Source of the DNA: an uncultured Eubacteriales bacterium
GTDB lineage: Bacteria; Bacillota; Clostridia; Christensenellales; CAG-138
Assembly (NCBI GenBank): GCA_902765005.1
Contig: CACWYB010000003.1
Span: forward strand, 124,001 to 188,000
Direction of reading: 5' to 3'
Length of the DNA: 64,000 nt
Within the stretch, counting starts at the first letter, position 1; every line of letters starts with the position of its first letter. Positions 23,236 through 57,329 of the stretch are shown piece by piece. Position numbers and translations under genes: made by a program. The notes beneath the pieces were generated by a model. That model was given only the letters and a program-made list of their open reading frames with translations. It ran no database searches and was not told where the DNA came from.

Positions 23236-23268
23236 GAAAAACAGAGTCCATTCGGGCTCTGTTTTTCA
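23236..23268 (+). terminator. terminator of the tRNA operon
   Basis: 9-bp stem ACAGAGTCC (23241-23249) / GGGCTCTGT (23254-23262) with loop ATTC and a T-run after it; the A-run before it makes it work in both directions. Confidence 0.85.
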
Positions 23269-23281
23269 TTACAGAAATGGG

Positions 23282-23380
23282 ACAGGACTTGAAGGGTTCG
23301 GTGGTGAATGGATGTCCAGTGGACATCCAGAGCCGAACCCTGTCTGAGGCCGCAGCCGAGAGCAAGTCCTGTTTCTTGCA
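23282..23380 (+). repeat. tRNA-end element, copy A (behind tRNA-Leu)
   Basis: Outer arms ACAGGACTTG (23282-23291) and CAAGTCCTGT (23363-23372) are inverted and match the T-arm of the tRNA-Leu just upstream; the right arm continues as a diverged copy of the tRNA 3' end. Inside are stem P2 (GGGTTCGG 23294-23301 with CCGAACCC 23333-23340), the nested hairpin P3 (GGATGTCC 23310-23317, loop AGT, GGACATCC 23321-23328) and the small hairpin P4 (GGC-CGCA-GCC, 23348-23357). Joints TGGTGAAT and AGAG are shared, in this orientation, with the other copies. Confidence 0.85.
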
Positions 23381-23391
23381 ACTATATAAGA

Positions 23392-23421
23392 TAAAGAGAG
23401 AGGGGTGACCCCCTCTCTTTA
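23392..23421 (-). terminator. terminator at the 3' end of the HerA-like gene
   Basis: Near-perfect inverted repeat AAAGAGAGAGGGG-TGA-CCCCCTCTCTTT between the tRNA element and the end of the minus-strand helicase gene; A/T-runs on both sides suggest two-way termination. Confidence 0.75.
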
Positions 23422-23437
23422 ATCAAGTATCTATCCC

Positions 23438-24944
23438 TCACAGCCAATTCCCGAACAATCCCCGGGCGATGGCCTTGCCCAGCTTTCGCCCGATCCGGTT
23501 CAGGATGGAGTTGGTGGCGGATTTCGCCACCTTCTTGGCCGCCTTGCCCGCGGCGCTTTGCTTCTTCTTTTTCCCGGCGTCGGCCTTCTCCTGCTCCTTC
23601 TGCTGTTTCTCGGCGGCCTTCTGCCGCTCCGCTTCCAGCTCGGCATGCGCCTTTGCCTGGGCCTCCTCCTTTAGCTTCTCATAGGCGGAATACCGGTCCA
23701 CGGCCTCCCTGTAGGCGGTGAAAAGTTCATCTTCTGATAGCACCTTTTCCCGGGTTTCCTCCCGGGCCGGCCCCATCAGGCTCTGGGGCGGCAGGATGCC
23801 GGCCCGCTCCACCACGGCGGGGATGCCCTTCTCGTCCAGGAAGGAGACCAGGGCTTCGCCGGTGCCCAGGCCCAGGATCTCCTGCTCCGTGTCCAGAGCC
23901 GGGTTGGGCCGGAAGGAAGCGGCCGCCGCCTTTACCGCCTTCAGCTCGGAGGGGGTGTAGGCCCTGAGCCCATGTTGGATCCGGTTGCTCAGCTGGGACA
24001 GCACTTCGTTTGGCATGTCTGCCGGGCTCTGGCTCACGAAATACACGCCCACGCCCTTGGACCGGATCAACTTCACCAGCTGCACGATCTTCTCCAGGAA
24101 GGCCTTGGGCGCCCCCTGGAAGAGCAGGTGGGCTTCATCGAAGAAGAATACGGCCTTGGGCTTTTCCGGGTCGCCCACCTCCGGCAGGCGCTCAAAGAGC
24201 TCCGACACCAGCCAAATGAGGAAGGTGCTGTAGATGAGGGGGGAGCGGATAAGCCGGGCGCTGTCCAGGATGTTCAGATATCCGCGGCCCTTCTCATCCA
24301 GGCGCAACAGATCGTTCACCGCCAGGGAGGGCTCCCCGAAGAACAGGTTGCCGCCCTCGTCCTCCAGCCGCAGCAACGCCCGCTGGATGGCTCCGATGCT
24401 CTGGGGCGTCACGTTCCCGTAGGCGGCGGTGATGGCCGCCCGGTTCTCGGACACATAGGTGAGCATGGCGCGCAGGTCCTTGAGGTCGATGAGCTCCAGG
24501 CCGTTGTCGTCCGCCACCCGGTAGACGATGTGCAGAATGCCCGTTTGAACCTCTGTGAGGCCCAGCAAACGGGAGAACATGAGGGGCCCCATGTTCCGAT
24601 ACCTTGATGCGGACGGGGATGCCCTTTTCACCGAAAATATCCCAGAAGGCCACGGGGTAGCCCCAATAGGACCAGCTTTCCTTTAGGTCGAAGCGCTCGA
24701 TCCGCCGCTGCATGTTTTCGGAATCCTGCCCGGCCTCGGCAAGGCCCGACACATCGCCCTTCACATCCGCCAGAAACACGGGCACGCCCATGTCCGAAAA
24801 GCTCTCGGCCAGCACCTTCATGGTCACGGTCTTGCCCGTGCCTGTGGCGCCGGTGATGAGGCCGTGGCGGTTAGCCATGGCGGGGAGCAGGTATATCTTT
24901 TTGCCCTGGGCGTTGGCCACATAGGCTTTTTCGTCTATTAACAT
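23438..24944 (-). pseudogene. HerA-like helicase (DUF853), split by a frameshift
   Basis: Two overlapping frames together give a HerA-type ATPase of about 500 residues. The first half has AAAGGAGG before ATG 24944, Walker A GATGTGKT at 32-39, and reads to FGEKGIPVRIKVSE. The second half continues as MGPLMFSRLLGLTEVQTG with Walker B VFFFDEAHLLF and an Ala/Lys/Glu-rich tail. The frames meet near 24593-24596, where one extra C in the coding strand (G at 24593) accounts for the shift. Either the gene is inactive in this genome or the base is a sequencing error; the rest is intact, which favours error or a very recent mutation. HerA-like ATPases pump or remodel DNA. Confidence 0.82.
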
Positions 24945-24971
24945 GGCAGAACCTCCTTTAGGATCGCTTGT

Positions 24972-24977
24972 ATTATA
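24972..24977 (-). promoter_or_regulatory. -10 box for the HerA-like gene
   Basis: TATAAT on the minus strand, 28 bases before the start codon. No -35 match at normal spacing is obvious. Confidence 0.45.
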
Positions 24978-25023
24978 GTACCATTCTTCTAAAACCGGCA
25001 CAAGGGAAACCGGAAAAATAATG

Positions 25024-25052
25024 TTGTCGCCGGGCGGAATCTGCGGTATAAT
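25024..25052 (+). promoter_or_regulatory. promoter of the miaB-ricA-mutSL-miaA operon
   Basis: TTGTCG (25024-25029), 17-base spacer, TATAAT (25047-25052); start codon of miaB at 25076. Confidence 0.78.
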
Positions 25053-25075
25053 ACAGGCAATTAAATTGGAGAAGT

Positions 25076-26473
25076 ATGTGGATGCTGGCAAAACGTATCG
25101 AACAAAACCGAATCGACCTGCAGGAGGGCATGGCCCAGGAGGTCCTTTCCCGCATAGAAGGGGAGAACAGGCGCTATTTTATCGAGACCTACGGCTGTCA
25201 GATGAACGTGCGGGATTCCGAAACCATCGCGGGCCTTTTGCAGCGCATGGGCTATCTGCCCGCCCCCTCCAAGGAGGAGGCCAACGTGATCCTGTTCAAC
25301 ACCTGCTGCGTGCGGGATCACGCGGAAAAGCGGCTGCTGGCCAACATCGGCGCCCTGAAGGAGCAGAAGGAAGGGGACGGGAGCCTGATCATCGGCATCT
25401 GCGGCTGCATGATGCAGCAGGCGGACGTGGCGAAAAAGGTTATGCGCCGGTTCCCCTTCGTGAACTTCGTCTTCGGCACCAACGCCCTTTGGCGGCTGCC
25501 GGAGCTCATGCTGGGCGCCCTGGGCGGCGAGCGGCTCATCCTTACGGAGGAGGAGGGCTTCGCCATCTGCGAGGGCCTGCCCGCCCGGCGGTCCAACCCC
25601 TTTTCCGCCTTTGTGAACATCACCTTCGGATGCGACAACTTCTGCTCCTACTGCATCGTGCCCTACGTGCGGGGACGGGAGCGGTCGCGGGCGCTTTCCG
25701 AGGTGGTGGCCGAGGTCCGGTCTTTGGCTGAGCAGGGAATCACAGAAGTCACCCTCCTCGGCCAGAACGTGAACTCCTACGGCAAGGGCAAGGACGTGGA
25801 CTTTGCGGACCTTCTGAGGGCCGTAAACGGGGTGGACGGCATCCGGCGCATCCGCTATATGTCCAGCCATCCCAAGGACCTGACGCCCCGGCTCATGGCC
25901 GCCATCGCCGAAAACGACAAGGTCTGCCATCACATGCACCTGCCCGTCCAGTCCGGCAGCACCGCCATTTTGGAGCGGATGAACCGGCGCTACAGCCGGG
26001 AAAGCTACCTGAATTTGGTGCAGGACCTGCGCCGGACCGTGCCGGACATCGAGCTCACCACGGACGTGATTGTCGGTTTTCCCGGGGAAACAGAGGCGGA
26101 TTTCCAGGATACCCTGTCCCTTATGGACCAGGTTGGGTTCGCCGCCGCCTTTACATTCAAGTATTCTCCCCGGAAGGGGACCCGGGCCGCGGAGGCGGCG
26201 GATCAGGTGCCGGAAGCCCTCAAGAAGGAGCGGCTCAAGCGCCTCAACGATCTGCAGGCCGTGAAGACCACCGAAAACAACAAAAAGTATCTGGGACACA
26301 GGGGAGAGGTGCTGGTGGAGGGCTTTGACAGAAGGAGCGAAACCATCCTCTTCGGCAAGCTCGACACCTTCAAAATGGTTTATTTCCCCGGGGACGAAGG
26401 GCTCCTGGGCACCTATCAAACCGTGTCCGTCACAGAATGCGCGCGAAATTCCCTGCTGGGGAGAATGGAGTAA
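25076..26473 (+). CDS. miaB: tRNA-2-methylthio-N6-dimethylallyladenosine synthase
   Basis: 465 residues with the three expected modules: an N-terminal MTTase domain with auxiliary cluster cysteines (ETYGCQMN, NTCCVRDHAEKR, GCMMQQ), a radical SAM domain (FGCDNFCSYCIVPYVRGRERSR) and a C-terminal TRAM domain. It thiomethylates i6A37 of tRNAs that read UNN codons. Its substrate is made by MiaA, encoded further down the same operon. GGAG lies 4 bases before ATG 25076 and 10 before the in-frame ATG 25082. Confidence 0.95.
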   Translation: MWMLAKRIEQNRIDLQEGMAQEVLSRIEGENRRYFIETYGCQMNVRDSETIAGLLQRMGYLPAPSKEEANVILFNTCCVRDHAEKRLLANIGALKEQKEGDGSLIIGICGCMMQQADVAKKVMRRFPFVNFVFGTNALWRLPELMLGALGGERLILTEEEGFAICEGLPARRSNPFSAFVNITFGCDNFCSYCIVPYVRGRERSRALSEVVAEVRSLAEQGITEVTLLGQNVNSYGKGKDVDFADLLRAVNGVDGIRRIRYMSSHPKDLTPRLMAAIAENDKVCHHMHLPVQSGSTAILERMNRRYSRESYLNLVQDLRRTVPDIELTTDVIVGFPGETEADFQDTLSLMDQVGFAAAFTFKYSPRKGTRAAEAADQVPEALKKERLKRLNDLQAVKTTENNKKYLGHRGEVLVEGFDRRSETILFGKLDTFKMVYFPGDEGLLGTYQTVSVTECARNSLLGRME

Positions 26474-26478
26474 GGAAA

Positions 26479-26865
26479 ATGGAAGAGAAGAAAAAAGGAA
26501 TGCTGGATGTGCTGTCCGCCGACGAGATCCATCGCTACATGAAGGCCAAGCGGGCCGTCACCGACGATGAAGAGCTCTCCGCCATGGTGAAGGAATATGA
26601 GGATGGCAGCGCCCGCCTGATTCAGATGGTCCAGACGGAAGGCTTCGATGAAAAGGAAGCGATCCAGCTCAGCAACGACATGGACTATATCGGGTTCCTC
26701 CTGAGCCAGAATCCGAAGATCATAGAACTGCAGGCGGCCAACAAGGCCATGAACGAGTATCTGGCCTCCGTCACGGGAAAGGTGTCCTTCTCCTGCGGCG
26801 GCAACTGCAGCGGCTGCGCTGAAACGTGTGCTATCAAAGACGTGCAGAAAGACGGGGAAGCATGA
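26479..26865 (+). CDS. ricA: YlbF/YmcA family protein (RicA-like)
   Basis: 128 residues. The alpha-helical YlbF-family domain (DEELSAMVKEYEDGSARLIQ) ends in a Cys-rich tail SCGGNCSGCAETC. In Bacillus, ymcA (ricA) lies next to miaB (ymcB) and before mutSL, the same order as here, and the RicA-RicF-RicT complex carries 4Fe-4S clusters and steers RNase Y. The tail cysteines may bind such a cluster. The start is the ATG at 26479, 5 bases after the miaB stop. I call it RicA from context; family membership is firmer than the name. Confidence 0.8.
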   Translation: MEEKKKGMLDVLSADEIHRYMKAKRAVTDDEELSAMVKEYEDGSARLIQMVQTEGFDEKEAIQLSNDMDYIGFLLSQNPKIIELQAANKAMNEYLASVTGKVSFSCGGNCSGCAETCAIKDVQKDGEA

Positions 26866-29498
26866 AGATCGTAGAGGGCATGTCGCCCATGATGCGCCAC
26901 TACCTGCAGATGAAGGAGCAGTATCCCGACTGCTTCCTGTTCTATCGGCTGGGCGATTTCTATGAGATGTTTTTTGAGGATGCCATAGAGGGCAGCAAGA
27001 TCATGGAGCTCACCCTCACCGGGCGGGACTGCGGCCTTCCCGAGCGGGCGCCCATGTGCGGCGTGCCCTACCACAGCGTGGACACCTATGTGCAGCGCCT
27101 CATCAGCAAGGGCTATAAGGTGGCCATCTGCGAGCAGATGGAGGACCCGGCCTTGGCCAAGGGCCTGGTGGATCGGGCGGTTATCCGGGTCATCACCCCC
27201 GGCACGGTCATCGAGGAAAAGCTCCTGGACGCGGGGAAGAACAACTACCTTTTGTCCGTCTACTGCGGCCGCGCCGGCTACGGCTACGCCTATGCGGATG
27301 TGTCCACCGGTGAATTCAAGGCGGGGGAGATCCGGGGCGAAACGCCGGAAGCGGGCCTCATCGACGAGATCACCCGCATCGCCCCCACGGAGTGCGTGGC
27401 AAACGACGCCCTCTTTGAGCAGGAATACCTGAAGAAGAAGGTCCAAAGCCTGTGCTATCTGGAAAAGCAGCCGGACAGCGTCTTTCAGCTCGGCCGAGCC
27501 ACGGAGGTGCTCAAAAAGCACTTCGACGTGTCCAGCTTGGACGGCTTCGGCTGCTCCGATCTGCCGCTGGCCATCTCGGCGGCGGGCGGGCTCATGCAGT
27601 ACCTCCAGGACACCCAGAAGAACGGGCTTTCCCACATCCGGCGGCTGGCTGTCATCAGCCGGTCGGAATACATGCAGCTGGACACCAACACCCGCCGCAA
27701 CCTGGAGCTGACGGAGGGCATCCGCACGGGCAGCGGGGGAAAGAACACCCTTTTGAACCTGCTGGACGTGACAGAGACCGCCATGGGCCGGCGGACGCTG
27801 CGCAACTGGATCGACTGCCCCCTGCAGGATAGGGAGGCGATTCAAATCCGCCTGGACGCCGTGGAGGAGCTCTTCAATAACACGGTCCTGCGCACCAAGC
27901 TCAGGGAGCACCTGGACAAGATCTACGACATCGAGCGCCTGTGCTCCAAGATCGCCTATGGGACCATCAACCCCCGGGACTGCATCGCCCTGGCCCGCTC
28001 CCTGCGGCAGATCGGCCCGGTGCTGGACATCCTCTCCACCTGCGAAAGCGGGGATCTATCCTATATCCGGGAAAATCTCGATCGGATGGAGGATATGGTG
28101 GACCTGATCGACCGGGCCATCGACGAGGACCCGGCCCCCAATCTGAAGGACGGGGGCGTGATCCGCTCCGGCTACAACCAGGAGGTGGACGAGCTGCGGG
28201 ATATCTCCGGCAACGCCAAGAAGTGGCTGGACGACATCCTGATCCGGGAGCGGGAGAACACGGGCATCAAGAACCTGCGCATCGGCTTCAACAAGGTCTT
28301 CGGCTACTTCCTGGAGGTGACCAAGTCCTTCGTGAACCAGGTGCCCTACTACTATCAGCGCAAGCAGACCCTGACCAACGCCGAGCGCTACATCACCCCG
28401 GAACTGAAGGACATCGAAAACCGCATCCTCACCGCCAACGAGCGGCTCATCAAGCTGGAAGCGGAGCTGTATGCCCAGATCCGGGACACCTTGCTGCCGG
28501 AGACCGGGCGGCTGGAGAAGAACGCCCAGCTCATCTCCCGGCTGGACGTGTACAGTTCCTATGCCCAGGTGGCCGTCACCCGGCGGTACGTCAGGCCTGA
28601 GCTGGCCGCAGACGGCATGATCCGCATCCGCAACGGCCGCCATCCCATCGTGGAGCGGACGCTGCAGGACGGCTTCATCCCCAACGACGTGCTGCTGGAT
28701 CGGGAGGAGAACAGGCTCCTCATTATCACCGGCCCCAACATGGCCGGTAAAAGCACCTATATGCGCATGGTGGCCCTGATCACCCTCATGGCCCACATCG
28801 GCTGCTTTGTGCCCGCCGAGAGCGCCCATGTGTGCCTGGTGGATAGGATATTCACCCGCATCGGGGCCAGCGACGATCTTTCCTCGGGCCAGAGCACCTT
28901 CATGGTGGAGATGAGCGAGGTGGCCAACATTCTGAACAACGCCTCCAAGGACAGCCTGCTCATCCTGGACGAGATCGGCCGGGGCACCAGCACCTATGAC
29001 GGCCTGTCCATCGCCTGGGCGGTGCTCGAATACATCGCCGATCCGGAAAAATGCGGGGCCAAGGCCCTCTTTGCCACCCATTATCACGAGCTTTCCGAGT
29101 TGGAAGGCCGGCTTTCCGGGGTGAAAAACTACCGCATCTCCGTGAAGGAGATAGGGGACGACATCCTGTTCTTGCGCAAGATCGTCCGTGGCAGCGCCGA
29201 TAAGAGCTTCGGCGTGCAGGTGGCCCGGCTTGCCGGCATCCCGGAGGACGTTATCAGCCGGGCGGGGGAGATCCTGAAGGATCTGGAGACCTCCGACATG
29301 GCCGCTCAACCCGCCGATCGACGCAAAAAAGCGGTGGATAACTCCGGTTATACTGTGGATAACTCAAATTCCGCTGTGGATAACTCGGTGGATAAAGCTA
29401 TTTTGGCGGACCTGAAAGCCCTCAACCTGGAGAATCTGACGCCCATGATGGCCCTGGAGAAGCTCTATTCCTATCGTGACGCCTGGAAGGAGGATTGA
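26862..29498 (+). CDS. mutS: DNA mismatch repair protein MutS
   Basis: About 878 residues. The mismatch-reading domain has the Phe-x-Glu motif region (YRLGDFYEMFFEDA), and the C-terminal ATPase has Walker A GPNMAGKSTYMR at about 624, followed by DEIGRGTSTYDG. ATG 26862 overlaps the ricA stop (ATGA). Near the C-terminus is a linker with repeats of VDNS (about residues 825-845), encoded by four DnaA-box-like 9-mers. mutL follows at 2 bases. Confidence 0.96.
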   Translation: MKIVEGMSPMMRHYLQMKEQYPDCFLFYRLGDFYEMFFEDAIEGSKIMELTLTGRDCGLPERAPMCGVPYHSVDTYVQRLISKGYKVAICEQMEDPALAKGLVDRAVIRVITPGTVIEEKLLDAGKNNYLLSVYCGRAGYGYAYADVSTGEFKAGEIRGETPEAGLIDEITRIAPTECVANDALFEQEYLKKKVQSLCYLEKQPDSVFQLGRATEVLKKHFDVSSLDGFGCSDLPLAISAAGGLMQYLQDTQKNGLSHIRRLAVISRSEYMQLDTNTRRNLELTEGIRTGSGGKNTLLNLLDVTETAMGRRTLRNWIDCPLQDREAIQIRLDAVEELFNNTVLRTKLREHLDKIYDIERLCSKIAYGTINPRDCIALARSLRQIGPVLDILSTCESGDLSYIRENLDRMEDMVDLIDRAIDEDPAPNLKDGGVIRSGYNQEVDELRDISGNAKKWLDDILIRERENTGIKNLRIGFNKVFGYFLEVTKSFVNQVPYYYQRKQTLTNAERYITPELKDIENRILTANERLIKLEAELYAQIRDTLLPETGRLEKNAQLISRLDVYSSYAQVAVTRRYVRPELAADGMIRIRNGRHPIVERTLQDGFIPNDVLLDREENRLLIITGPNMAGKSTYMRMVALITLMAHIGCFVPAESAHVCLVDRIFTRIGASDDLSSGQSTFMVEMSEVANILNNASKDSLLILDEIGRGTSTYDGLSIAWAVLEYIADPEKCGAKALFATHYHELSELEGRLSGVKNYRISVKEIGDDILFLRKIVRGSADKSFGVQVARLAGIPEDVISRAGEILKDLETSDMAAQPADRRKKAVDNSGYTVDNSNSAVDNSVDKAILADLKALNLENLTPMMALEKLYSYRDAWKED
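29333..29395 (-). other. four DnaA-box-like sites inside the 3' end of mutS
   Basis: TGTGGATAA (exact complement of the TTATCCACA box) at 29354-29362 and 29375-29383, and GGTGGATAA at 29333-29341 and 29387-29395, all in one orientation within 63 bases. They encode the VDNS/VDK repeats of the MutS linker. Confidence 0.6.
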
Positions 29499-29500
29499 CC

Positions 29501-41981: not shown

Positions 41982-42042
41982 AGATAAACGGGGATTGTTC
42001 AAAAATAGATTACAATGGGGACAGTTTACAAGCAGATTTGAA

Positions 42043-42145
42043 GCATAGGAGAGTCGAACCCTCGGCTGCGGCCTCGCTCAGATCGCGGCTCCGAACGTCC
42101 CCCGGACGTTCATTCACTACCGCGATCAGTTCGACTCTCCCTTCT
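42043..42145 (-). repeat. tRNA-end element, copy B (behind tRNA-Ala)
   Basis: Outer arms GGAGAGTCGAAC (42048-42059) and GTTCGACTCTCC (42129-42140) pair over 12 bases and match the T-arm of tRNA-Ala; the left side extends as GCATAGGAG, a copy of that tRNA's acceptor end. Inside: P4 GGCTGCGGCC (42064-42073), P2 GATCGCGG (42081-42088) with CCGCGATC (42120-42127), P3 GAACGTCC (42093-42100) with GGACGTTC (42104-42111) and loop CCC. Unpaired joints CTC and ATTCACTA match the other copies. Confidence 0.88.
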
Positions 42146-42151
42146 ACAGAC

Positions 42152-42186
42152 AAAAAAACAACCACCGATCGGTGGTTGTTTTTTTG
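42152..42186 (-). terminator. terminator of tRNA-Ala
   Basis: Strong palindromic stem AACAACCACC-GATC-GGTGGTTGTT with long A and T runs on either side, directly next to the tRNA 3' end. Confidence 0.9.
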
Positions 42187-42262
42187 TGGTGGAGCATAGG
42201 AGAGTCGAACTCCTGGCCTCCACAATGCCATTGTGGCGCGCTACCAACTGCGCTAATGCCCC
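42187..42262 (-). tRNA. tRNA-Ala(GGC)
   Basis: Acceptor GGGGCAT/ATGCTCC, A73 and encoded CCA, anticodon GGC in loop AATGGCA region, T-arm ending TTCGACTCTCCT. It has its own promoter and terminator. Its 3' end is duplicated in copy B of the tRNA-end element. Confidence 0.95.
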
Positions 42263-45210: not shown

Positions 45211-45328
45211 AGGGCAAATCCTCCTGATTGGATGGGAAGAGTATACCTGCAAGATTCGTCCAAAATGTCACAAAAGGATTAGGAAGATGCGGACAAATGG
45301 TAAATTATGGCGGATGTGTGGAGTGTAG

Positions 45329-45528
45329 GGCTGCGGAACTAGGATTCGATTCTCGCCTGCGGGCTCGGTCGGGGCGCTGATTTGCGTGCGAGCTGGGGCG
45401 GAACTAGGATTCGATTCTCGCCTGCGGGCTCGGTCGGGGCGCTGATTCGCGTGTCTGCTGGGGCGGAACCAGGATTAGTCTCGCGCTCGACGCGCTCGGT
45501 CGGGGCGTTGATTCGCGTGTCTGCTGGG
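45329..45528 (-). repeat. tandem array of about 65 bases behind tRNA-Gln (partial tRNA-end elements)
   Basis: Three units beginning CTG(C/G)GG at 45331, 45393 and 45458 (spacing 62 and 65), with a fourth start at 45524 (66) that opens copy C. Each unit has a copy of the tRNA-Gln 3' end (GCGGAACTAGGATTCG or a variant) followed by the P4 hairpin and GCTCGGTCGGGGCG, but lacks P2 and P3. Confidence 0.85.
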
Positions 45529-45635
45529 GCGGAACTAGGATTCGTCTCGCGCTCGACGCGCTCGGTCGGGGAACGGCTCTGAATGTCCCCCGGACATTCA
45601 TTCACCACCGTTCCCTTCGAATCCAGTTCCGCGCC
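45525..45635 (-). repeat. tRNA-end element, copy C (behind tRNA-Gln)
   Basis: Outer arms GCGGAACTAGGATTCG (45529-45544) and CGAATCCAGTTCCGC (45618-45632) pair with one bulge and match the 3' end of tRNA-Gln. Inside: P4 GCGCTCGACGCGC (45549-45561), P2 GGGAACGG (45569-45576) with CCGTTCCC (45608-45615), P3 GAATGTCC (45581-45588) with GGACATTC (45592-45599) and loop CCC. Confidence 0.88.
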
Positions 45636-45678: not shown

Positions 45679-45752
45679 TGGCTGCGGAACTAGGATTCGA
45701 ACCTAGACAATACGAGTCAGAGTCGTAGGTGCTGCCATTACACAATTCCGCA
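45679..45752 (-). tRNA. tRNA-Gln(CTG)
   Basis: Acceptor TGCGGAA/TTCCGCA, G73 and encoded CCA, anticodon CTG in loop CTCTGAC with stem TACGA/TCGTA. It is the last RNA of its unit, and its 3' end is copied several times in 45329-45632. Confidence 0.95.
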
Positions 45753-45766: not shown

Positions 45767-45947
45767 GGAAATCCCGAGATGCCGTCCGTCTGAGTGATAA
45801 CACCCGCCTCTCGGCAGGTGGTCGAGCTGTGATGAGCATCAGCCTTCCCGTCCATGCGGGCCTGACATCCTCTCGATCAACGCGCCTTTCCGTATTCACT
45901 CTGTGGGTTTATCACTAAAAACGTAACGCACACCGCAGGATTATTCC
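45767..45947 (-). ncRNA. ssrS: probable 6S RNA
   Basis: 181 bases between two tRNAs on the same strand, the normal length of 6S RNA. The ends close on each other (GGAA...TTCC, ATCCTG/CGGGAT), followed by a further stem AGTGATAA/TTATCACT, an open central region with the small hairpin CACCTGCC-GAGA-GGCGGGTG, and an apical stem with CCCG/CGGG. The 5' TCCTGCGGTGTGCG and 3' CGGCATCTCGGG resemble Firmicutes 6S RNA. It would bind the housekeeping RNA polymerase by mimicking an open promoter. Confidence 0.65.
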
Positions 45948-49872: not shown

Positions 49873-49890
49873 ATATATGCCCTCCTCTGT

Positions 49891-49905: not shown

Positions 49906-49955
49906 CATAGGTGGGCAAAAAAGCGTATATCTTTCAAAAAAATAATTAGACGCAC

Positions 49956-49984
49956 TTCCAACTTTTCTTTTCCTGTGCTATACT
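49956..49984 (+). promoter_or_regulatory. promoter of the ade-xdhABC operon
   Basis: TTCCAA (49956-49961), 17-base spacer, TATACT (49979-49984), 21 bases before the start codon, with GGGAGGA between them. The weak -35 hints at an activator. Confidence 0.6.
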
Positions 49985-50005
49985 ACCAAATGGGAGGATA
50001 TAAAG

Positions 50006-51697
50006 ATGGATAATTACAGATTACGCAACGCAATTCTGAACGCCACCTCAAAAAACGCCGCCCTTGTCATCAAGAACGCCAACATCGTCAACGTGTTCAC
50101 CGGCACCATCGAGCACGGGGACGTGGCCGTTCGGGATGGCATCATCCTCGGCATCGGAGACTATGCCGGCCGGGAGGAGATCGACGCTCATGGCGCATTC
50201 CTCTGCCCCGGCCTCATCGACGGCCATGTGCATATCGAATCCTCCATGGCCCATCCGTCCCGGTTCGCCGAATGCGTGCTCAAGCAGGGCACCACCACCG
50301 TTATCGCCGATCCCCATGAGATCGCCAACGCCTGCGGCACCGACGGCATCCAGTACATGCTGGATCAGACGGAATGGCTGCCGCTGTCCGTGTTCTTCAT
50401 GATCCCCTCCTGCGTCCCCTGCACCAGCTTCGAGACCAGCGGCGCCAAGCTGGTGGCCAGCGATATGGAGCCCTTCCTGTCCCAGAAACGGGTCATCGGC
50501 CTGGGGGAAGTGATGGATTACGTGGCCGTGGTTACCGGCGACGGGGAGATGCTGGATAAACTCAAGCTCTTCGAGCGCCGGCCCATCGACGGCCACGCTC
50601 CCCTGCTCTTCGGGGACGAGCTCAACGCCTACTGTATCGCCGGGCCCAAGACGGACCACGAATGCTCGGAATACGGCGAATTCCTGGAAAAGCTGCGCCG
50701 GGGCATGCGGCTCCACCTGCGGCTGGGGTCCGCCTGTCGGGGCGTGGAGGAGATCATGCGGCACATCGCCGAGGACAAGCTCCCCACCCGCCGGATGCTC
50801 TTCTGCACCGACGACAAGCACCTGGGAGACATCGAGCGGGAGGGCCACATCAACTACATCCTCCGCCGGGCCGTGGCCAACGGCATCCACCCCATAGAGG
50901 CTGTGCAGATGGCCACCATCAACGCCGCCGAGACCTACGGGCTCCAGCGCTACGGGGCCATCGCCCCCGGGTATCGGGCGGACATGGTCCTTTTCGACAA
51001 TCTCAAAGATTTCAACGTGCAGATGGTGTTCAGCAACGGCATCCGCTTCGAGCATCATCCGGACACCCTCTTAAAGCGTGACCCCCGGATCTACAACAGC
51101 GTGCACCTGGCGCCGCGAAAGCCCGGGTGCCTGGATCTGCCCGTCAAAGGGGAAATGCCGGTGATCAACCTGACCCCCGGAGAACTGCTGACCAACCTGA
51201 GCTTTGAAACCGTTCCCGAGAAGGACGGCAAGTTCGCCCCCACCCCGGAGCTGCTGAAGGCGGCGGTTTTCGAGCGGCACATGTCCTCCGGCCGGGTGGG
51301 CGTGGGCATATTGAAGGGCATGCGCCTTGAGAACGGGGCCATCGCCTCCACCGTGGGCCACGATTCCCACAACCTCATCGTGGTGGGCGACAACGACGAA
51401 GATATGCTGGCCGCCGTGGACGCCCTGGAAGCCTGCTCCGGCGGGTTCGTGGTGGTGAGCCAAGGCAAGATCCTATCCCAGCTGCCGCTGCCCATCGCGG
51501 GCCTGATGAGCGACCTGCCCCTCAGCAAGATCATCGAGCGGCAGGAGGAGCTCCTCGCCGCCTTTAGAACCATCGGCGAATACGCGGACGGAGACCCCTT
51601 CGTGACCCTTTCCTTCATCGCCCTGCCTGTGATCCCCCACGTGCGCATCACGGATATGGGCGTGTTCAACGTGAGTAAGATGGAGTTCATTCAGTAA
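50006..51697 (+). CDS. ade: adenine deaminase
   Basis: 563 residues, within the normal range for this amidohydrolase. It converts adenine to hypoxanthine. The first metal ligands are in PGLIDGHVHIESSM, followed by TTVIADPHEIANACG and GHAPLLFGDELNAY, and the C-terminal SGRVGVGILKG. Hypoxanthine can then be oxidised by the enzyme encoded directly downstream. It is the first gene of the plus-strand operon. Confidence 0.94.
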   Translation: MDNYRLRNAILNATSKNAALVIKNANIVNVFTGTIEHGDVAVRDGIILGIGDYAGREEIDAHGAFLCPGLIDGHVHIESSMAHPSRFAECVLKQGTTTVIADPHEIANACGTDGIQYMLDQTEWLPLSVFFMIPSCVPCTSFETSGAKLVASDMEPFLSQKRVIGLGEVMDYVAVVTGDGEMLDKLKLFERRPIDGHAPLLFGDELNAYCIAGPKTDHECSEYGEFLEKLRRGMRLHLRLGSACRGVEEIMRHIAEDKLPTRRMLFCTDDKHLGDIEREGHINYILRRAVANGIHPIEAVQMATINAAETYGLQRYGAIAPGYRADMVLFDNLKDFNVQMVFSNGIRFEHHPDTLLKRDPRIYNSVHLAPRKPGCLDLPVKGEMPVINLTPGELLTNLSFETVPEKDGKFAPTPELLKAAVFERHMSSGRVGVGILKGMRLENGAIASTVGHDSHNLIVVGDNDEDMLAAVDALEACSGGFVVVSQGKILSQLPLPIAGLMSDLPLSKIIERQEELLAAFRTIGEYADGDPFVTLSFIALPVIPHVRITDMGVFNVSKMEFIQ

Positions 51698-51707
51698 GGA
51701 GGATTTC

Positions 51708-54017
51708 ATGATCGTAGGAAAAAGCGTGCCCCGCGTGGACGCGTTCGACAAGGTGACCGGACGCGCCAAATACACGGACGATCTGTGCGACAGGAGCGCC
51801 CTGCTCATTCGGGTGGTCCGGTCCACCATCGCCCATGGCTTCGTGAAATCCGTGGATATTTCCGAAGCCATGAAGGTGCCGGGCGTGGTCCGGATCTTCA
51901 CCTGCTTCGACGTGCCCGATATCCCCTTCCCCACCGCCGGCCATCCCTGGTCCGTGGAGGAAGCCCATCAGGACGTGGCCGACAGGCTCCTGCTAAACCG
52001 GCATGTGCGTTATTACGGCGACGACGTGGCCGCGGTGGTGGCGGAAAACGAGGTGGCCTGCGCCCAGGCAGCCAGGCTGGTGAAGGTGGAGTATGACCCC
52101 CTCCCCTTCGTTCTCGATCCCATCCAGGCCATGCAGGAGGGCCAGCCCCAGCTCCATGAGGCCTACCCCCACAACATCCTCAAGCACACCTCCATCCGCA
52201 ACGGCAACTTTGAAGAAGCCAGAAAGGAGGAGGGCCTTGTCTGCATCGACAAGTGGTACACCACCCCCACCGTGCAGCACTGCCACATTGAAAACTTCAT
52301 CTGCTACGCCTATGAGGAGGCCGGCAAGACCGTCATCGTCTCCTCCACCCAGATCCCCCACATCGTCCGGCGGACCGTGGGCCAGGCCCTGGGCATCCCC
52401 TGGGGTTCCGTGCGGATCATCAAGCCCTATATCGGCGGGGGCTTCGGCAACAAGCAGGACACCCTCTATGAGCCCCTGTGCGGCTGGATCTGCCGTCAGC
52501 TGGGCGGCCGGCTGGTGAAGATCGATATCCCCCGGGAGGACACCTTCATCAGCAACCGGGTGCGCCACGCCATCAAGTTCCACATCATCTCCTATGTCCG
52601 CAAGGACGGCACCTATGTGGCCCGGAAGCTGGAGATGTTCTCCGACCAGGGAGCCTACGCCTCCCACGGCCATTCCATCGCCGCCAAGGGCATGGGCGCC
52701 TTCCCCCAGATGTACCCCTGCCCCAACGTGGAGTGCGACGCCTACACGGTGTACACCAACAAATCCGTCTCCGGCGCCATGCGGGGCTACGGCATCCCCC
52801 AGGCCATGTTCGCCTTCGAGAGCCACACGGACGACGTGTGCAAGGCCCTGGGGCTGGACCCGGTGGCCTACCGGCGCTCGCACATCATGCCCGTGGGGTA
52901 TAAGGACGGCTTCTCCAAGAACGAAAACTATTACGACACCTTCAACCAGTGCATGGACAAGGCCATCGAGTACATGGACTACTACGCCCGTCGGGAGGAG
53001 TTCAAGAACCAAACCGGCCCCATCCGCAAGGGCATCGGCCTCTCCTGCTTCTGGTACAACACGGGCGTATGGCCCATCTCTTTGGAGCACTCCTCCTGCC
53101 GCATGGTCCTGAACCAGGACGGTACCATCCAGCTGCAGGTGGGCGAAACGGAGATCGGCCAGGGCGCCGACACGGCCTACGCTCAGATGGCCGCGGAGGT
53201 CATCGGCCTGCGGGATTACACGGACGTGCACGTGGTCTCCAGCCAGGACACGGACGTGACCCCCTTCGGCCTGGGGGCCTACGCCTCCCGGCAGACCTAC
53301 ATGTGCGGCTTCTCCATCACCCAGACCGGGCAGATCCTGAAGAAAAAGATCCTTGAGTACGCCCAGGAGCTGACCCGGATGCCCGCCTATGAGCTGGACA
53401 TCGTGGAGGGGAACATCGTCCGGGCCACGGACGAGCGGGTGCTCATGCCCCTTGGCGACCTGGCCACCGAGGCCTTCTACAGCCTGACCCACAGCGTGCA
53501 TATCACGGCGGAGTCCACCTACCAGATCAAGACCAACGCCTACTCCTTCGGCTGCTGCATCGCCGAGGTGGAGGTGGATGTGCCCCTATGCCGGGCGGAG
53601 GTGAAGAAGATCATCAACGTCCACGACTGCGGCCGGCTCATCAACCCCGCCCTGGCGGAAGCCCAGGTGGAGGGCGGCATGAGCATGGGCATCGGCTATG
53701 CCCTGTCCGAGCAGCTGATCTACGACGAGAAGACGGGCCGGGGCCTCAACAACAATCTGCTGGACTACAAGCTGTCCACCACATTGGATCACCCTCACCT
53801 GGAGGCCCAGTTCGTGGAGAACCCGGAGCCCACCAACCCCTTCGGCACCAAAGCCCTGGGCGAGCCTCCGGCCACCCCCGTGGCGCCGGCCATCCGCAAC
53901 GCCATTCTGAACGCCACCGGCGTGGCGGTGGACGATCTGCCCATGAACCCCAAGGTGCTGTTCCGGCGGTTCACCGAGGAAGGGCTCATTCACGATCCCT
54001 GGAGAGAGGAGAAATAA
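51708..54017 (+). CDS. xdhA: xanthine dehydrogenase, molybdenum-binding subunit
   Basis: 769 residues, the size of the separate large subunit in three-subunit enzymes. It begins VGKSVPRVDAFDKVTGRAKYTDD and carries YIGGGFGNKQD, SGAMRGYGIPQ, the GQGADTAYAQMAAE segment and NPFGTKALGEPPATPV near the catalytic Glu (in GEPP). It binds the molybdopterin centre that hydroxylates xanthine or hypoxanthine. AAGGAGG precedes the ATG, 10 bases after ade. Selenium-dependent hydroxylases of clostridia share this subunit, so the exact substrate and metal-sulfur or -selenium ligand are open. Confidence 0.92.
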   Translation: MIVGKSVPRVDAFDKVTGRAKYTDDLCDRSALLIRVVRSTIAHGFVKSVDISEAMKVPGVVRIFTCFDVPDIPFPTAGHPWSVEEAHQDVADRLLLNRHVRYYGDDVAAVVAENEVACAQAARLVKVEYDPLPFVLDPIQAMQEGQPQLHEAYPHNILKHTSIRNGNFEEARKEEGLVCIDKWYTTPTVQHCHIENFICYAYEEAGKTVIVSSTQIPHIVRRTVGQALGIPWGSVRIIKPYIGGGFGNKQDTLYEPLCGWICRQLGGRLVKIDIPREDTFISNRVRHAIKFHIISYVRKDGTYVARKLEMFSDQGAYASHGHSIAAKGMGAFPQMYPCPNVECDAYTVYTNKSVSGAMRGYGIPQAMFAFESHTDDVCKALGLDPVAYRRSHIMPVGYKDGFSKNENYYDTFNQCMDKAIEYMDYYARREEFKNQTGPIRKGIGLSCFWYNTGVWPISLEHSSCRMVLNQDGTIQLQVGETEIGQGADTAYAQMAAEVIGLRDYTDVHVVSSQDTDVTPFGLGAYASRQTYMCGFSITQTGQILKKKILEYAQELTRMPAYELDIVEGNIVRATDERVLMPLGDLATEAFYSLTHSVHITAESTYQIKTNAYSFGCCIAEVEVDVPLCRAEVKKIINVHDCGRLINPALAEAQVEGGMSMGIGYALSEQLIYDEKTGRGLNNNLLDYKLSTTLDHPHLEAQFVENPEPTNPFGTKALGEPPATPVAPAIRNAILNATGVAVDDLPMNPKVLFRRFTEEGLIHDPWREEK

Positions 54018-54021
54018 GGCC

Positions 54022-54906
54022 ATGTATGATATGAAGGAACTGTACGAAGCCTTTTCCGTTGAAGAGGCGATTGAGCTTCGATTGGCCCATCCAGAGGCCC
54101 AGATCATCGCCGGCGGGTCCGACGTGCTGGTGCAGATGCGGGAGGGCAAGCGGGCCGGCAAGGAGCTCATCTCTATCTATCTGGTGGAGGAGCTTAGGGG
54201 CGTGTCCCTGGATGAGAACGGCGCCATCCGCATCGGGTCCCTGACCAGCTTCTCCCACATCACCAAGGACCCCATCATCCAGAAGTATATCAACGTTCTG
54301 GGCGAAGCGGTGGACCTGGTGGGCGGGCCCCAGATCCGGAACATCGGCACCATCGGCGGCAACACCTGCAACGGCGTGACCAGCGCCGACTCCGCCTCCA
54401 CCCTCCACGCCTGGGAAGCCGTCGTGGAGCTCACCGGTCCCAACGGCAAGCGGCTGGTGCCCATCAAGGATTTTTACATCAAAGCCAGCACCGTGGACAT
54501 CCGGGAAGGCGAAATACAGACCGCCCTCCTGATCCCCAAGGAGAGCTACGAGAACACCTTCGGCTCCTATTACAAATACGCCATGCGCAACGCCATGGAT
54601 ATCGCCACCACGGGCTGTTCCGTGAACGTGCGCCTCTCCCCCGATAAAACCGCCTTTGACCGGGTGCGCATCGCCTACGGCGTGGCCGGGCCCGTGCCCA
54701 TGCGCGCGCCCTCGGCGGAGGCGCTGATCCGGGGCAAGGCGCTGACCATGGAGAACGCGGAAGCTTTCTCCTTAGAGGTGCTCAAGGACATCAACCCCCG
54801 GGATTCCTGGCGGGCGCCCAAGGCGTTTCGGCAGCATATCGCCGTGGAGATGGCCAAGCGGTGCCTGATCGAGGCCACCAATCGCTGCGGAGGTGAAATC
54901 AAATGA
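54022..54906 (+). CDS. xdhB: xanthine dehydrogenase, FAD-binding subunit
   Basis: 294 residues. IIAGGSDVLVQMREGKR near the N-terminus and GGPQIRNIGTIGGNTCNG (about 95-112) are the FAD-binding motifs of the CoxM/XdhB family; the rest is the CO-dehydrogenase flavoprotein C-terminal domain. It passes electrons from the iron-sulfur subunit to NAD+ or another acceptor. It begins 4 bases after xdhA and overlaps xdhC by 4 bases. Confidence 0.93.
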   Translation: MYDMKELYEAFSVEEAIELRLAHPEAQIIAGGSDVLVQMREGKRAGKELISIYLVEELRGVSLDENGAIRIGSLTSFSHITKDPIIQKYINVLGEAVDLVGGPQIRNIGTIGGNTCNGVTSADSASTLHAWEAVVELTGPNGKRLVPIKDFYIKASTVDIREGEIQTALLIPKESYENTFGSYYKYAMRNAMDIATTGCSVNVRLSPDKTAFDRVRIAYGVAGPVPMRAPSAEALIRGKALTMENAEAFSLEVLKDINPRDSWRAPKAFRQHIAVEMAKRCLIEATNRCGGEIK

Positions 54907-55394
54907 AGGATCAGTATCGGCTCATTGAATTCAATCTGAACGGCAAGGACGTGGCCTGCATGGTGGACTGCCGGGCCTCGCTGACGGACATGCTGCGGAA
55001 CGATTTTCGGCTCACCTCCGTGAAGAAGGGCTGCGAGGTGGGCGAATGCGGCGCCTGCAACGTGATCATCGACGGGGAGTGCTTTAACTCCTGCATCTAC
55101 CTGGCGGTGTGGGTCCGGGGCAAGCATGTGCGGACCTTGGAAGGGCTCATGGGCCCCAACGGGGAGCTGTCCGACATCCAGCAGGCGTTCATCGACGAGA
55201 CCGCCGTCCAGTGCGGGTTCTGCACGCCCGGGTTCATCATGTCCGCCGTGGAGATCCTGGAGACCGGCAAGCTCTACACCCGGGACGAGCTTCGAAAGCT
55301 CCTCTCCGGCCACCTGTGCCGCTGCACGGGGTATGAGAACATTCTCAACGCCGTGGAGAAGACCATGAAGAAACGGCTTGGAATCGTGGAATAA
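54903..55394 (+). CDS. xdhC: xanthine dehydrogenase, 2Fe-2S subunit
   Basis: 163 residues. A plant-type ferredoxin domain (KKGCEVGECGACNVIIDGECFNSC) and a helical 2Fe-2S domain (CGFCTPGF and LCRCTGYENI) provide the eight cysteines for two clusters between molybdenum and FAD. The ATG overlaps the xdhB stop (ATGA). It ends the operon, with a strong hairpin terminator about 70 bases downstream. Confidence 0.94.
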   Translation: MKDQYRLIEFNLNGKDVACMVDCRASLTDMLRNDFRLTSVKKGCEVGECGACNVIIDGECFNSCIYLAVWVRGKHVRTLEGLMGPNGELSDIQQAFIDETAVQCGFCTPGFIMSAVEILETGKLYTRDELRKLLSGHLCRCTGYENILNAVEKTMKKRLGIVE

Positions 55395-55413
55395 TATGTA
55401 AGAATGATAGCTA

Positions 55414-55439
55414 ACACCTTTTCTTGAAAGAAAAGGTGT
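55414..55439. repeat. palindrome downstream of xdhC (first of two related)
   Basis: Perfect 12-bp inverted repeat ACACCTTTTCTT-GA-AAGAAAAGGTGT, followed by CCAAAAGAAC. Similar in design to the palindrome at 55512-55546. Confidence 0.75.
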
Positions 55440-55462
55440 CCAAAAGAACTTTAGGAATACTA

Positions 55463-55509
55463 AAAAGCTTAGGAAGCTAATCTATTAAACTTCCTAAGCT
55501 TTTCTTTTT
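55463..55509 (+). terminator. terminator of the ade-xdhABC operon
   Basis: 14-bp perfect stem AAAAGCTTAGGAAG (55463-55476) / CTTCCTAAGCTTTT (55490-55503) with a 13-base loop, then CTTTTTG. Confidence 0.85.
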
Positions 55510-55511
55510 GG

Positions 55512-55546
55512 GCGACTTTTCCTTTTCACTGAAAAGAAAAAGTCGC
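55512..55546. repeat. palindrome downstream of xdhC (second)
   Basis: 16-bp inverted repeat with one mismatch (55512-55527 with 55531-55546) around ACT, A/T-rich core closed by GCGAC/GTCGC. It ends 9 bases before the convergent ADP-ribosylglycohydrolase stop and may end that transcript too. Confidence 0.75.
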
Positions 55547-55555
55547 AAAAGAGAA

Positions 55556-56527
55556 TTACTCTTGCGGTATCGTGGACAGCCTGACGGCGTAGGCGCGGAT
55601 CACGTTGCACAGCTCCACCCCGTCCCGCCATTCCACGGGTATGGCCCCCGCGCCCAGGAGCATGCCCATGATGTTCCCGCAGATGGCGCCGGTGGAATCG
55701 GAATCCCCGTCGTGGTTCACGGCCAGCCGCAGGGCCTGGGGGAAATCCGTGGGGAAACTCAGCGCGCTGTACACGGCGATGGCCAGAGCCTCCTCCCCTA
55801 CCCAACCCTCGCCCAGCTCATGGACGGTGGGCGCGCAGGGCCGGCCCTCCTCGGCCAGCGCCACGGCGTGCCGCAACGCCTCCTGGGTGCTTTCTGCCCC
55901 CTCTACCTCGCCAAGCTCCGCGATCACATCCTCCACCGCGTCGGGCAGGGATTGGCCGTAATACAGCTTCTGCAGCAGCGCAGCCAAAGCGCCGGCGGGG
56001 ATATACCCGCCGGGATGCCCATGGGTGATGGCTGCAACCCGGCAGCCCAACGTGAACGCGTCAGGAAACACGGCGCAGGGCGCCACCCGCATGACGCCGC
56101 CGCAGCCGCGGCTGTTGTTGATGGGATCGGCCAGGGTGCCCATGATCCCGCTGCTCAGGCTGGACAGACAGGTGGACCCGGGGGCCCGGTTAGCAAAGAA
56201 CTCGGCTTCGTTCAGGAGCCCGCCCTCATACTTGGCGCCGGGCATTTTGGACTTAGATTGGGTGTAATACCACCGCAGATAGGACCGATAGACGCTCTTG
56301 GTCAGGGACTTGCCGGTTTTGAGCCCGTTGAGCAGGCCTTCCGCCGTGAACAGGGTCATCTGCGTGTCGTCGGAGATAAGGTTGCTCACCGACAGATCCC
56401 GCACGCCGGCGCCGCCGAAACGGCGGGCGATATCGCTGTAGCGCATGAACTCCACGGGATAGCCCATGGCATCCCCGATGGCGCCGCCCAACAGGCAGCC
56501 GATCATGCGGCTTTTCCGGCCCGGCAT
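55556..56527 (-). CDS. ADP-ribosylglycohydrolase family protein
   Basis: About 323 residues. GCLLGGAIGDAMGYPVEF opens the DraG/ARH fold; SDDTQMTLFT holds two metal ligands and NHDGDSDSTGAI near the C-terminus the others, so the dinuclear Mg site is complete. It should remove ADP-ribose from protein or small-molecule targets. The start at 56527 has GGGAGG 8 bases upstream and lies about 27 bases after the predicted transcript start, whereas an earlier ATG would precede it. No ADP-ribosyltransferase partner is adjacent, so the substrate is unknown. Confidence 0.9.
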   Translation of the reverse strand: MPGRKSRMIGCLLGGAIGDAMGYPVEFMRYSDIARRFGGAGVRDLSVSNLISDDTQMTLFTAEGLLNGLKTGKSLTKSVYRSYLRWYYTQSKSKMPGAKYEGGLLNEAEFFANRAPGSTCLSSLSSGIMGTLADPINNSRGCGGVMRVAPCAVFPDAFTLGCRVAAITHGHPGGYIPAGALAALLQKLYYGQSLPDAVEDVIAELGEVEGAESTQEALRHAVALAEEGRPCAPTVHELGEGWVGEEALAIAVYSALSFPTDFPQALRLAVNHDGDSDSTGAICGNIMGMLLGAGAIPVEWRDGVELCNVIRAYAVRLSTIPQE

Positions 56528-56560
56528 ACCGCGCCCCTCCCTTCCCGAACGATTGTTTAT

Positions 56561-56589
56561 ACCATACCACATGTTCATACTTTGTTCAA
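56561..56589 (-). promoter_or_regulatory. promoter of the ADP-ribosylglycohydrolase gene
   Basis: Minus-strand TTGAAC (56584-56589), 17-base spacer, TATGGT (56561-56566). Confidence 0.65.
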
Positions 56590-56675
56590 TATATTTTTTG
56601 ACTTTTTTCGCTTAAAACCAGAAGATATGGGATAAATCTCGTTCTTTTGGCACAACATGTGGTGATCCCGGGAGA

Positions 56676-56772
56676 TGGGGAGAGTCGAACCCTCGGCTGC
56701 GGCCTCGCTCAGATCGCGGCTCTGAAGCGCCACCGGCGCTTCATTCACCACCGCGATCAGTTCGACTCTCTA
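56676..56772 (-). repeat. tRNA-end element, copy E (second behind tmRNA)
   Basis: Outer arms GAGAGTCGAAC (56680-56690) and GTTCGACTCTC (56760-56770) pair over 11 bases and match the T-arm of tmRNA. Inside: P4 GGCTGCGGCC (56695-56704), P2 GATCGCGG (56712-56719) with CCGCGATC (56751-56758), P3 GAAGCGCC (56724-56731) with GGCGCTTC (56735-56742) and loop ACC. The left arm continues as GATGGG, a diverged copy of the tmRNA acceptor end. Confidence 0.88.
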
Positions 56773-56782
56773 TCTCAACAGA

Positions 56783-56818
56783 CAAAAAAGCAACCACCCC
56801 TGGGTGGTTGCTTTTTTG
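56783..56818 (-). terminator. second terminator behind tmRNA
   Basis: AAAAAAGCAACCACCC / GGGTGGTTGCTTTTTT with a tight loop. It lies between copies D and E of the element, next to a copy of the tmRNA 3' end including its CCA (56818-56837). Confidence 0.85.
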
Positions 56819-56930
56819 TGGTGGAGGTGGGGAGAGTCTCCTCTCGCCCTCGACGGGCTCGGTCAGGGCGGGCTCTGAGGCTCCACTGGAGCCTCATTCA
56901 CCTCCCGCCCAGTTCGACCTCCCCACCTCC
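56818..56930 (-). repeat. tRNA-end element, copy D (first behind tmRNA)
   Basis: Left arm TGGTGGAGGTGGGGAGAGT (56819-56837) copies the last bases of tmRNA with CCA in the reverse strand; right arm GTTCGACCTCCCCACCTCC (56912-56930) is the inverted partner. Inside: P4 GCCC-TCGAC-GGGC (56846-56858), P2 GGGCGGG (56866-56872) with CCCGCCC (56904-56910), P3 GAGGCTCC (56877-56884) with GGAGCCTC (56888-56895) and loop ACT. Confidence 0.88.
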
Positions 56931-56940
56931 GATTACCAAA

Positions 56941-56971
56941 AGAAAAGCCACCCAAACGGGTGGCTTTCTTT
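56941..56971 (-). terminator. terminator of tmRNA
   Basis: 10-bp stem AAAGCCACCC-AAAC-GGGTGGCTTT with A and T runs on both sides, one base from the tmRNA 3' end. Confidence 0.88.
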
Positions 56972-57329
56972 TGGTGGAGGTGGGGAGAGTCGAACTCCCG
57001 TCCGAGAACATGGTGACCCAACTTTCTACGAGCGTAGCCGTCGTACAAGTATTCCCCTTGCGGCGCTCCCAACGGCGGGATCGCCGGTCCGGTAGCTTCA
57101 TAAAGTCCGGTCCGGGGCAAAGCTTACCCGGATTCGTTCCCTATCCTGAATGACGCCCGTGTCTGGGACGATAGGTCTTCTCAGGCGGACGCTGTCACGC
57201 GCTTAGGCAGCGACAGGGAGTGTGTTGTAGTTGTCTGTTATTTTTAAACAGGTCCCGCTTTTAACGAAGCTCGGGGCTTCGGCTCGCTTATCCGGCCCTC
57301 ACTATCCCCGTCGAAACCATTTCACCCCC
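56972..57329 (-). ncRNA. ssrA: transfer-messenger RNA
   Basis: 358 bases. The tRNA-like ends pair (GGGGGTG with CACCTCC) and finish ACCA; the 5' part has the usual TGGTTTCGACGGGGATAG and the T-arm is GTTCGACTCTC. The open reading frame ends at the TAA at 57203-57205; read back from there the tag is DNYNTLPVAA, possibly with one or two residues before the Asp. It rescues stalled ribosomes with SmpB, encoded 38 bases upstream on the same strand. Confidence 0.95.

Follow-up and report, generated by a model that had tools for sequence, protein, structure and literature searches.

REP and REPIN sequences (TnpA-REP, RAYT) are short, gene-less, bulged imperfect palindromes that lie between genes, in tandem or dispersed. 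The attC sites of integrons keep their structure while the sequence of the stem varies, and carry extrahelical bases. Integrative elements use att sites in the T-loop or 3′ end of tRNA genes; their insertion leaves the tRNA 3′ end directly repeated, and they accrete in tandem. Small inverted triplications, including the products of origin-dependent inverted-repeat amplification (ODIRA), have the order copy, inverted copy, copy around a short spacer and form by template switching at palindromes; the available text of PMC13334657 describes them, with spacers, from yeast and cancer genomes. A palindrome sits behind many tRNA genes of an archaeon, according to the accessible part of its description, and palindromic candidate RNAs are reported from human microbiomes in the available text of PMC8040213. 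Here we describe an element which resembles several of these: a gene-less DNA hairpin of ~100–150 bp behind tRNA and transfer-messenger RNA (tmRNA) genes. It was found in a window of 64,000 nucleotides (the whole stretch analysed; contig CACWYB010000003.1, positions 124,001–188,000) from an uncultured Eubacteriales bacterium of the CAG-138 lineage. Both outer arms repeat the local tRNA end from the T-loop to CCA, one in inverted and the other in direct orientation. We found no account of such locus-templated arms at tRNA genes in the open-access literature of PubMed Central (PMC).

Read on the tRNA strand, the tRNA with its CCA is followed by terminator hairpin, 5′ arm, stem P2, GTGAAT joint, stem P3 with a 3-base loop, GAG, the second half of P2 (P2′), hairpin P4 and 3′ arm. 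From T-loop to acceptor end the host tRNA is present again in the 5′ arm, as reverse complement, and in the 3′ arm, as direct copy, sometimes with CCA and another terminator. Core and arms meet at the T-loop (..GAAC, core, GTTC..). All four tRNA/tmRNA units of the window end in an element, and the tmRNA unit has two in tandem. An earlier note, made from the sequence alone, had described five full copies, each located after the terminator that follows the last RNA gene in its unit (tRNA-Leu on the plus strand; tRNA-Ala, tRNA-Gln and tmRNA on the minus strand). All five were recovered in place, with P2, P3, 3-base loop, P4 and arms as described. The note had missed the origin of the arms from the 3′ end of the local tRNA, the remnants behind copy C, and 15 more matches in the genome. 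The features are as follows.

23147–23233, plus strand: tRNA-Leu(CAG), last gene of the Pro-Met-Asp-Thr-Tyr-Leu unit and arm source for copy A (ARAGORN)
23234–23270, plus strand: terminator hairpin of the tRNA-Leu unit (read from sequence)
23279–23380, plus strand: copy A, behind tRNA-Leu (covariance model match, E 6.2e-14)
23279–23293, plus strand: 5′ arm of copy A, inverted tRNA-Leu end
23294–23301 with 23333–23340, plus strand: P2 of copy A
23309–23317 with 23321–23329, plus strand: P3 of copy A
23348–23357, plus strand: P4 of copy A
23363–23380, plus strand: 3′ arm of copy A, direct copy of the tRNA-Leu end
42040–42145, minus strand: copy B, behind tRNA-Ala(GGC) at 42187–42262 (ARAGORN; covariance model match, E 3.9e-13)
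42129–42145, minus strand: 5′ arm of copy B, with P2 at 42120–42127 and 42081–42088, GTGAAT joint at 42112–42117 and 3′ arm at 42040–42059
42148–42186, minus strand: terminator between tRNA-Ala(GGC) and copy B
45529–45634, minus strand: copy C, behind tRNA-Gln(CTG) at 45679–45752, last of the Val-6S-Gln unit (covariance model match, E 1.4e-11)
45616–45634 and 45529–45544, minus strand: 5′ arm and 3′ arm of copy C
45320–45528, minus strand: degenerate tandem remnants of copy C, with P2′ half, P4 and 3′ arm about three times and P3 lost (by eye)
56818–56930, minus strand: copy D, first element behind tmRNA at 56972–57329 (covariance model match, E 1.5e-10)
56911–56930 and 56818–56838, minus strand: 5′ arm and 3′ arm of copy D
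56672–56776, minus strand: copy E, second element behind tmRNA (covariance model match, E 4.8e-14, the best of the genome)
56760–56776 and 56672–56691, minus strand: 5′ arm and 3′ arm of copy E
56936–56971, minus strand: first terminator hairpin, between tmRNA and copy D (read from sequence)
56782–56819, minus strand: second terminator hairpin, between copies D and E (read from sequence)

Dispersed relatives of the element look like REP/REPIN sequences, but a Y1 gene was not found in 8 of the 10 same-genus carriers tested, the arms are copied from the local tRNA in a fixed orientation behind tRNA units, and the GTAG tag is not fixed, the bases before GTGAAT being TA, TG, GA, AA, CA or AG. As in attC boxes, the left arm ends in AAC and the right arm starts with GTT. 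Unlike integrons, however, the 33 genomes searched had no detectable IntI (in a search with no positive control), no gene cassettes were seen, and the arms vary with the host tRNA. Compared with integrative elements at tRNA genes, the element is only ~100–150 bp long, has no genes, carries an extra inverted tRNA end and lies after the terminator (one clear pair of loci). The triplications in the available text of PMC13334657 come from yeast and human cancer and have units of ~150 bp; here the units are ~25 nt, derive from bacterial tRNA ends, and enclose a conserved spacer which recurs at many loci. The archaeal palindrome is a short fixed motif, proposed as a maturation signal, and the accessible part of its description mentions no tRNA-derived arms.

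A covariance model built from 14 copies of the source genome (G000; relatives' genomes and fetched loci are labelled with G and L numbers) gave 20 matches in that genome, and 119 matches, 112 of them distinct, in 98 fetched loci. All 12 genomes of the genus carried the element, with 5–20 matches each. Among 61 genomes of the neighbourhood, 17 had matches, namely the 12 of the genus and five others with 1–3 each. In the order, at least 21 of 396 genomes had matches at E ≤ 1e-4, a lower bound because 12 candidates were scored per genome. The family suspected in the earlier note is real and keeps its link to tRNA genes in relatives. Its impression that no such family had been described agreed with Rfam, where the elements had no match at the gathering score. 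In the window, this search returned tRNAs, tmRNA, 6S RNA and a T-box. For one stretch a search with relaxed thresholds yielded sub-threshold matches only; for three other loci it yielded two tRNAs, with no match on an element.

The arms follow the gene next to them. For an arm-specificity test we used the 77 of 112 distinct copies located ≤200 nt downstream of a same-strand tRNA or tmRNA. Among 22 tRNA types, the 3′ arm fitted its own tRNA best in 68 of the 77 (one tie) and the 5′ arm in 54 (four ties); many of the remaining arms belonged to tRNAs with alike T-arms, to a tRNA-Cys variant or to degenerate copies. The distance to the tRNA was 46–74 nt in 63 of the 112 distinct copies. Within 80 nt, the 5′ arm agreed with the local T-arm at ≥9 of 12 positions in all 63 first copies, as against 85/1260 for shuffled arms. 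In 18 of these 63 an inverted repeat, small gaps allowed, ran from the terminator stem via CCA and the acceptor to the T-loop; there, tRNA end, terminator and 5′ arm formed a single large palindrome, whose apex was the terminator.

The cores are shared between places. Among 80 copies from the genus, four P2 and P3 combinations recurred behind two or more RNA genes, as did six P4 strings. Cores thus spread from one tRNA locus to another, and the arms remain local. A pattern scan of public genomes returned at least 119 stretches holding at least 126 distinct sites. The 80 titles listed among the matches were Clostridia-type metagenome-assembled genomes (Oscillospiraceae, Clostridiales, Clostridia, Christensenella and a few others), many from ruminants. 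Fifty sites lay ≤400 nt behind a same-strand tRNA or tmRNA, 41 of them at 38–75 nt; one had an opposite-strand tRNA alone, 10 had a T-loop arm with no tRNA in reach, and 18 were of other kinds. In IMG/VR the pattern scan gave 16 stretches. Only L091 had tmRNA-like arms. The other stretches held dispersed repeats, with CCTCC/GGAGG as an example of their arms, and in most of them a GCGAAGC hairpin preceded P2. Since these dispersed relatives share the core, we group the element broadly with the gene-less palindromes of the REP and miniature inverted-repeat transposable element (MITE) kind. Like them, it is a short, non-coding inverted repeat, present in many copies at unrelated loci (20 in G000, at least 126 public sites).

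In the 12 genomes of the genus we found 55 places of five tRNA types and read 42 by eye (tRNA-Trp, Arg(ACG), Ser(GGA) and Val(CAC)), leaving out nine Gln, one Arg and three partial or weak places. An element was present at 37 of the 42, four were empty and one held a remnant. The clearest pair was at tRNA-Trp, where the empty L116 (G002) and the filled L115 (G011), compared by eye, placed the insertion directly after the terminator. At L253 the tRNA end and terminator were exactly duplicated on both sides of a hairpin; the core there was partly masked and, as far as readable, not of the GTGAAT type. For orientation we used a looser pattern, giving 229 cores in all loci except L001–L006. Ninety-one of them followed a tRNA 3′ end within 130 nt and had the same orientation, and none was in the opposite one; two preceded a 5′ end, on the other strand, and 136 were without a tRNA. 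One core of L039 (1501–1569, G046) sits before the 5′ end of tRNA-Leu on the opposite strand, in a duplicated D-arm/anticodon segment. Another, near 5029 in L229, lies within an apparent initiator-tRNA copy, between the anticodon arm and the T-arm.

The stems change often and remain paired. In the 14 source-genome copies 97.3% of the pair cells were paired, and the covariation score was 0.582, compared with 0.150 for shuffled and ≤0.084 for slid alignments. For 103 distinct rows, in an alignment that was fitted to the covariance model, 98.2% of 1883 pair cells were standard, 435 cells had changed on both sides, and the score was 0.613, compared with 0.133 shuffled and ≤0.083 slid. The covariation expected in the earlier note thus appeared with more sequences, while its statement that every change is matched was right for about 98% of the pair cells, but not for all. 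By type, the 1883 cells were 1838 Watson-Crick, 12 G.T, 17 A.C and 16 other. The acceptor and T stems of 59 distinct tRNAs from the fetched loci, taken as a control, had 40 G.T, 5 A.C and 2 other, with the caveat that ARAGORN itself tolerates G.U. If covariance models have any preference, it is generally for G.U. For the pairing of the outer arms (P1), a symmetric alignment gave 18 G.T, 22 A.C and 26 other (81 of 106 arm pairs aligned, 25 not); it superseded a count by RNA duplex energies (132 G.U of 1707), in which G.U is favoured by design and A.C cannot be counted. At the public sites (at least 126), the 756 P3 cells left free by the search pattern had 2 G.T, 5 A.C and 3 other. A selected RNA fold would favour G.U, whereas here G.T was as rare as A.C; a structured RNA is therefore not supported, and the conserved pairing is that of DNA rather than of RNA. 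With covariation this strong and no tolerance of wobble pairs, a covariation test alone would misname a DNA hairpin as an RNA; counting G.T against A.C tells the two apart at no cost.

Fast and matched change can be seen at L004 (contig 3 of G000, near 217000), where five tandem copies with an identical 11-nt arm follow tRNA-Ser(GCT). The linkers preceding copies 2–5 are near-identical, and the stem types are mirrored, in the order 1-2-3-2-1. Copies of unlike type differ in two P2 pairs and in 3, 5 or 6 P3 pairs, all of them compensated. The core itself can also be another one. Behind tRNA-Ser(GGA), 6 of 11 genomes had a core with a long P3 and no GTGAAT between arms of the same kind (L137, L138, L139, L142, L144 and L145), and a similar second-type core comes first behind the tmRNA in L049. 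Since this second type is likewise flanked by arms derived from the tRNA, one arm plan can enclose different cores. On a viral contig (L094, 7203–7279 and downstream), a terminator comes behind tRNA-Val, then the tRNA end in inverted form, an unrelated hairpin and, last, the tRNA end in direct form.

We give an even chance to the explanation that the element is a gene-less, REP/MITE-like DNA hairpin which spreads between tRNA genes via the conserved T-loop, taking the sequence of its arms from the resident tRNA and keeping its stems matched through template switching (fold-back copying), a mechanism that we infer. A nascent DNA strand would fold back at the terminator palindrome and copy the tRNA end into the inverted arm, as far as the T-loop. 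The universal T-loop sequence would allow a switch to the core of another copy, and after return to the local T-loop the tRNA end would be copied again, as the direct arm. The product would be a small inverted triplication in which the core forms the spacer, and the same hairpin-templated copying would keep the fast-changing stems matched. We favour fold-back copying because the order found, a copy, an inverted copy, the core and a copy of one segment with a short spacer, matches an inverted triplication, and because the perfecting of stems by template switching has been described: according to the available text of PMC8794818, template switching can create and maintain stems. The earlier note had held that selection acts on the fold; the pairing is indeed conserved, but fold-back copying would yield the same covariation, so selection is not the sole reading. 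More tentatively, and short of an even chance, the element may be a self-retargeting DNA hairpin, with no transposase of its own, the T-loop as its address, both flanks rewritten from the resident tRNA, and Watson-Crick register held by fold-back. Covariation is usually taken as proof of RNA structure; if the hairpin does retarget itself in this way, here it would be a product of replication. If template switching is at work, the loci would be a natural record of bacterial inverted triplication at many tRNA ends of one genus.

Several observations weigh against fold-back copying. A single clear pair of empty and filled loci was found, and its last direct arm is cut short. Over the whole 26-nt tRNA end, the own tRNA beat all other types in just 41 of 63 copies, and the arms are incompletely updated at some loci (L117, L137 and L138), those of L137 and L138 resembling each other more than the current tRNA. 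By a loose motif rule, 47 of the at least 126 public sites look dispersed and have no tRNA arms; the link to tRNA genes made in the earlier note thus stands for the 50 sites behind tRNA/tmRNA, but is not absolute. The origin of the core at the second turn is something we infer rather than observe. Loss of SbcCD as the reason why the palindromes persist was considered and rejected for want of a link: SbcD occurs in 12 of 33 genomes, namely nine of the 21 carriers and three of the 12 that gave no match. The 91:0 orientation is not predicted by copying alone, as symmetric arms would allow both directions, and the unpaired joints recur in model-found copies of other genera. Fixed orientation and recurring joints together suggest that some factor recognises the element or that the process is strand-specific, with the evidence from the joints weakened by the model, which rewards them, by the pattern scans, which required them, and by the second core type without GTGAAT.

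Such a factor could be a recombinase. The element would then be a non-autonomous single-strand-DNA transposon or cassette, whose folded core (GTGAAT bulge, hairpins) is recognised by a putative enzyme that joins it to tRNA T-loops, like IntI on attC or TnpA on IS200/REP hairpins. We regard this as unlikely; in its favour are structure conserved while stem sequence varies, one orientation only, junctions at T-loops, tandem arrays, and the same core at different tRNAs. It is also in this form that the earlier note's other suggestion survives, a DNA element whose folded single strand is recognised. Among the enzymes sought, in a set where many genomes are incomplete, none tracked carriage of the element. 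The Y1 domain (PF01797) of TnpA-REP was found in 2 of 10 same-genus carriers and 12 of 29 genomes overall (E ≤ 0.001), the DEDD transposase of bridge-RNA (IS110) elements in 1 of 33 genomes and in none of the 12 of the genus, and reverse transcriptase in 8 of 33 genomes and 2 of 12 in the genus. Integron integrase IntI (TIGR02249) was found in 0 of 33 genomes at E ≤ 1e-20, in a search of unproven sensitivity because none of 14 control genomes passed the cut-off either; ordinary tyrosine recombinases were not searched for. None of these enzymes accounts for the rewriting of the inverted arm. If an enzyme is responsible, it would be a new hairpin recombinase aimed at tRNA T-loops.

Selection for a use to the host is improbable in our view. 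In this case the element would be a DNA site kept behind tRNA operons, as a back-up terminator, a gyrase or nucleoid site, or a decoy att site shielding tRNA genes from integrative elements. The filling of 37 of the 42 loci of four tRNA types in the genus fits such a site, as does the island that entered between tmRNA and element in L071, whereas the four empty loci and the remnant, the patchy presence in other genera (at least 21 of 396 genomes of the order) and the dispersed and viral-contig occurrence of the core do not. The earlier note had offered a structured RNA as one reading; such an RNA (or the gene for it) would arise by read-through from tRNA units, with its fold under selection. 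The strong covariation and the position behind tRNA genes would suit it; since wobble pairs are as rare as A.C, unlike in the tRNAs of the fetched loci, the note's RNA reading is not supported. The window copies, moreover, lie after the terminator, Rfam gave no match at the gathering score, and tandem copies sharing one arm differ by multi-pair jumps, so that we hold it to be very improbable.

In L070, L071 and L073 a core has tmRNA arms, but its immediate upstream region lacks a tmRNA; the three loci have one downstream gene in common, which looks like an ADP-ribosylglycohydrolase. In L071 (contig 57 of G010, 369–4444) several genes lie between the tmRNA, ~4 kb upstream, and the tmRNA-armed core; by eye, one of the intervening open reading frames (ORFs) resembles a fragment of a serine recombinase. 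A gene-bearing parent element was considered for these three loci and rejected, given their common downstream gene and the distance to the tmRNA in L071.

Other observations concern single places. In L005 (340–830, contig 29 of G000), a tRNA-Cys not detected by ARAGORN seems to pass into element sequence after the anticodon arm, as either a broken gene or an assembly collapse. At position 4476 of L076 (G153), a dispersed core lies between two ORFs which look like dnaN and dnaA. In the window, a 6S RNA (45767–45944) is located between tRNA-Val and tRNA-Gln in one unit, and a T-box leader was recognized by Rfam at 19636–19865, with 95.7 bits.

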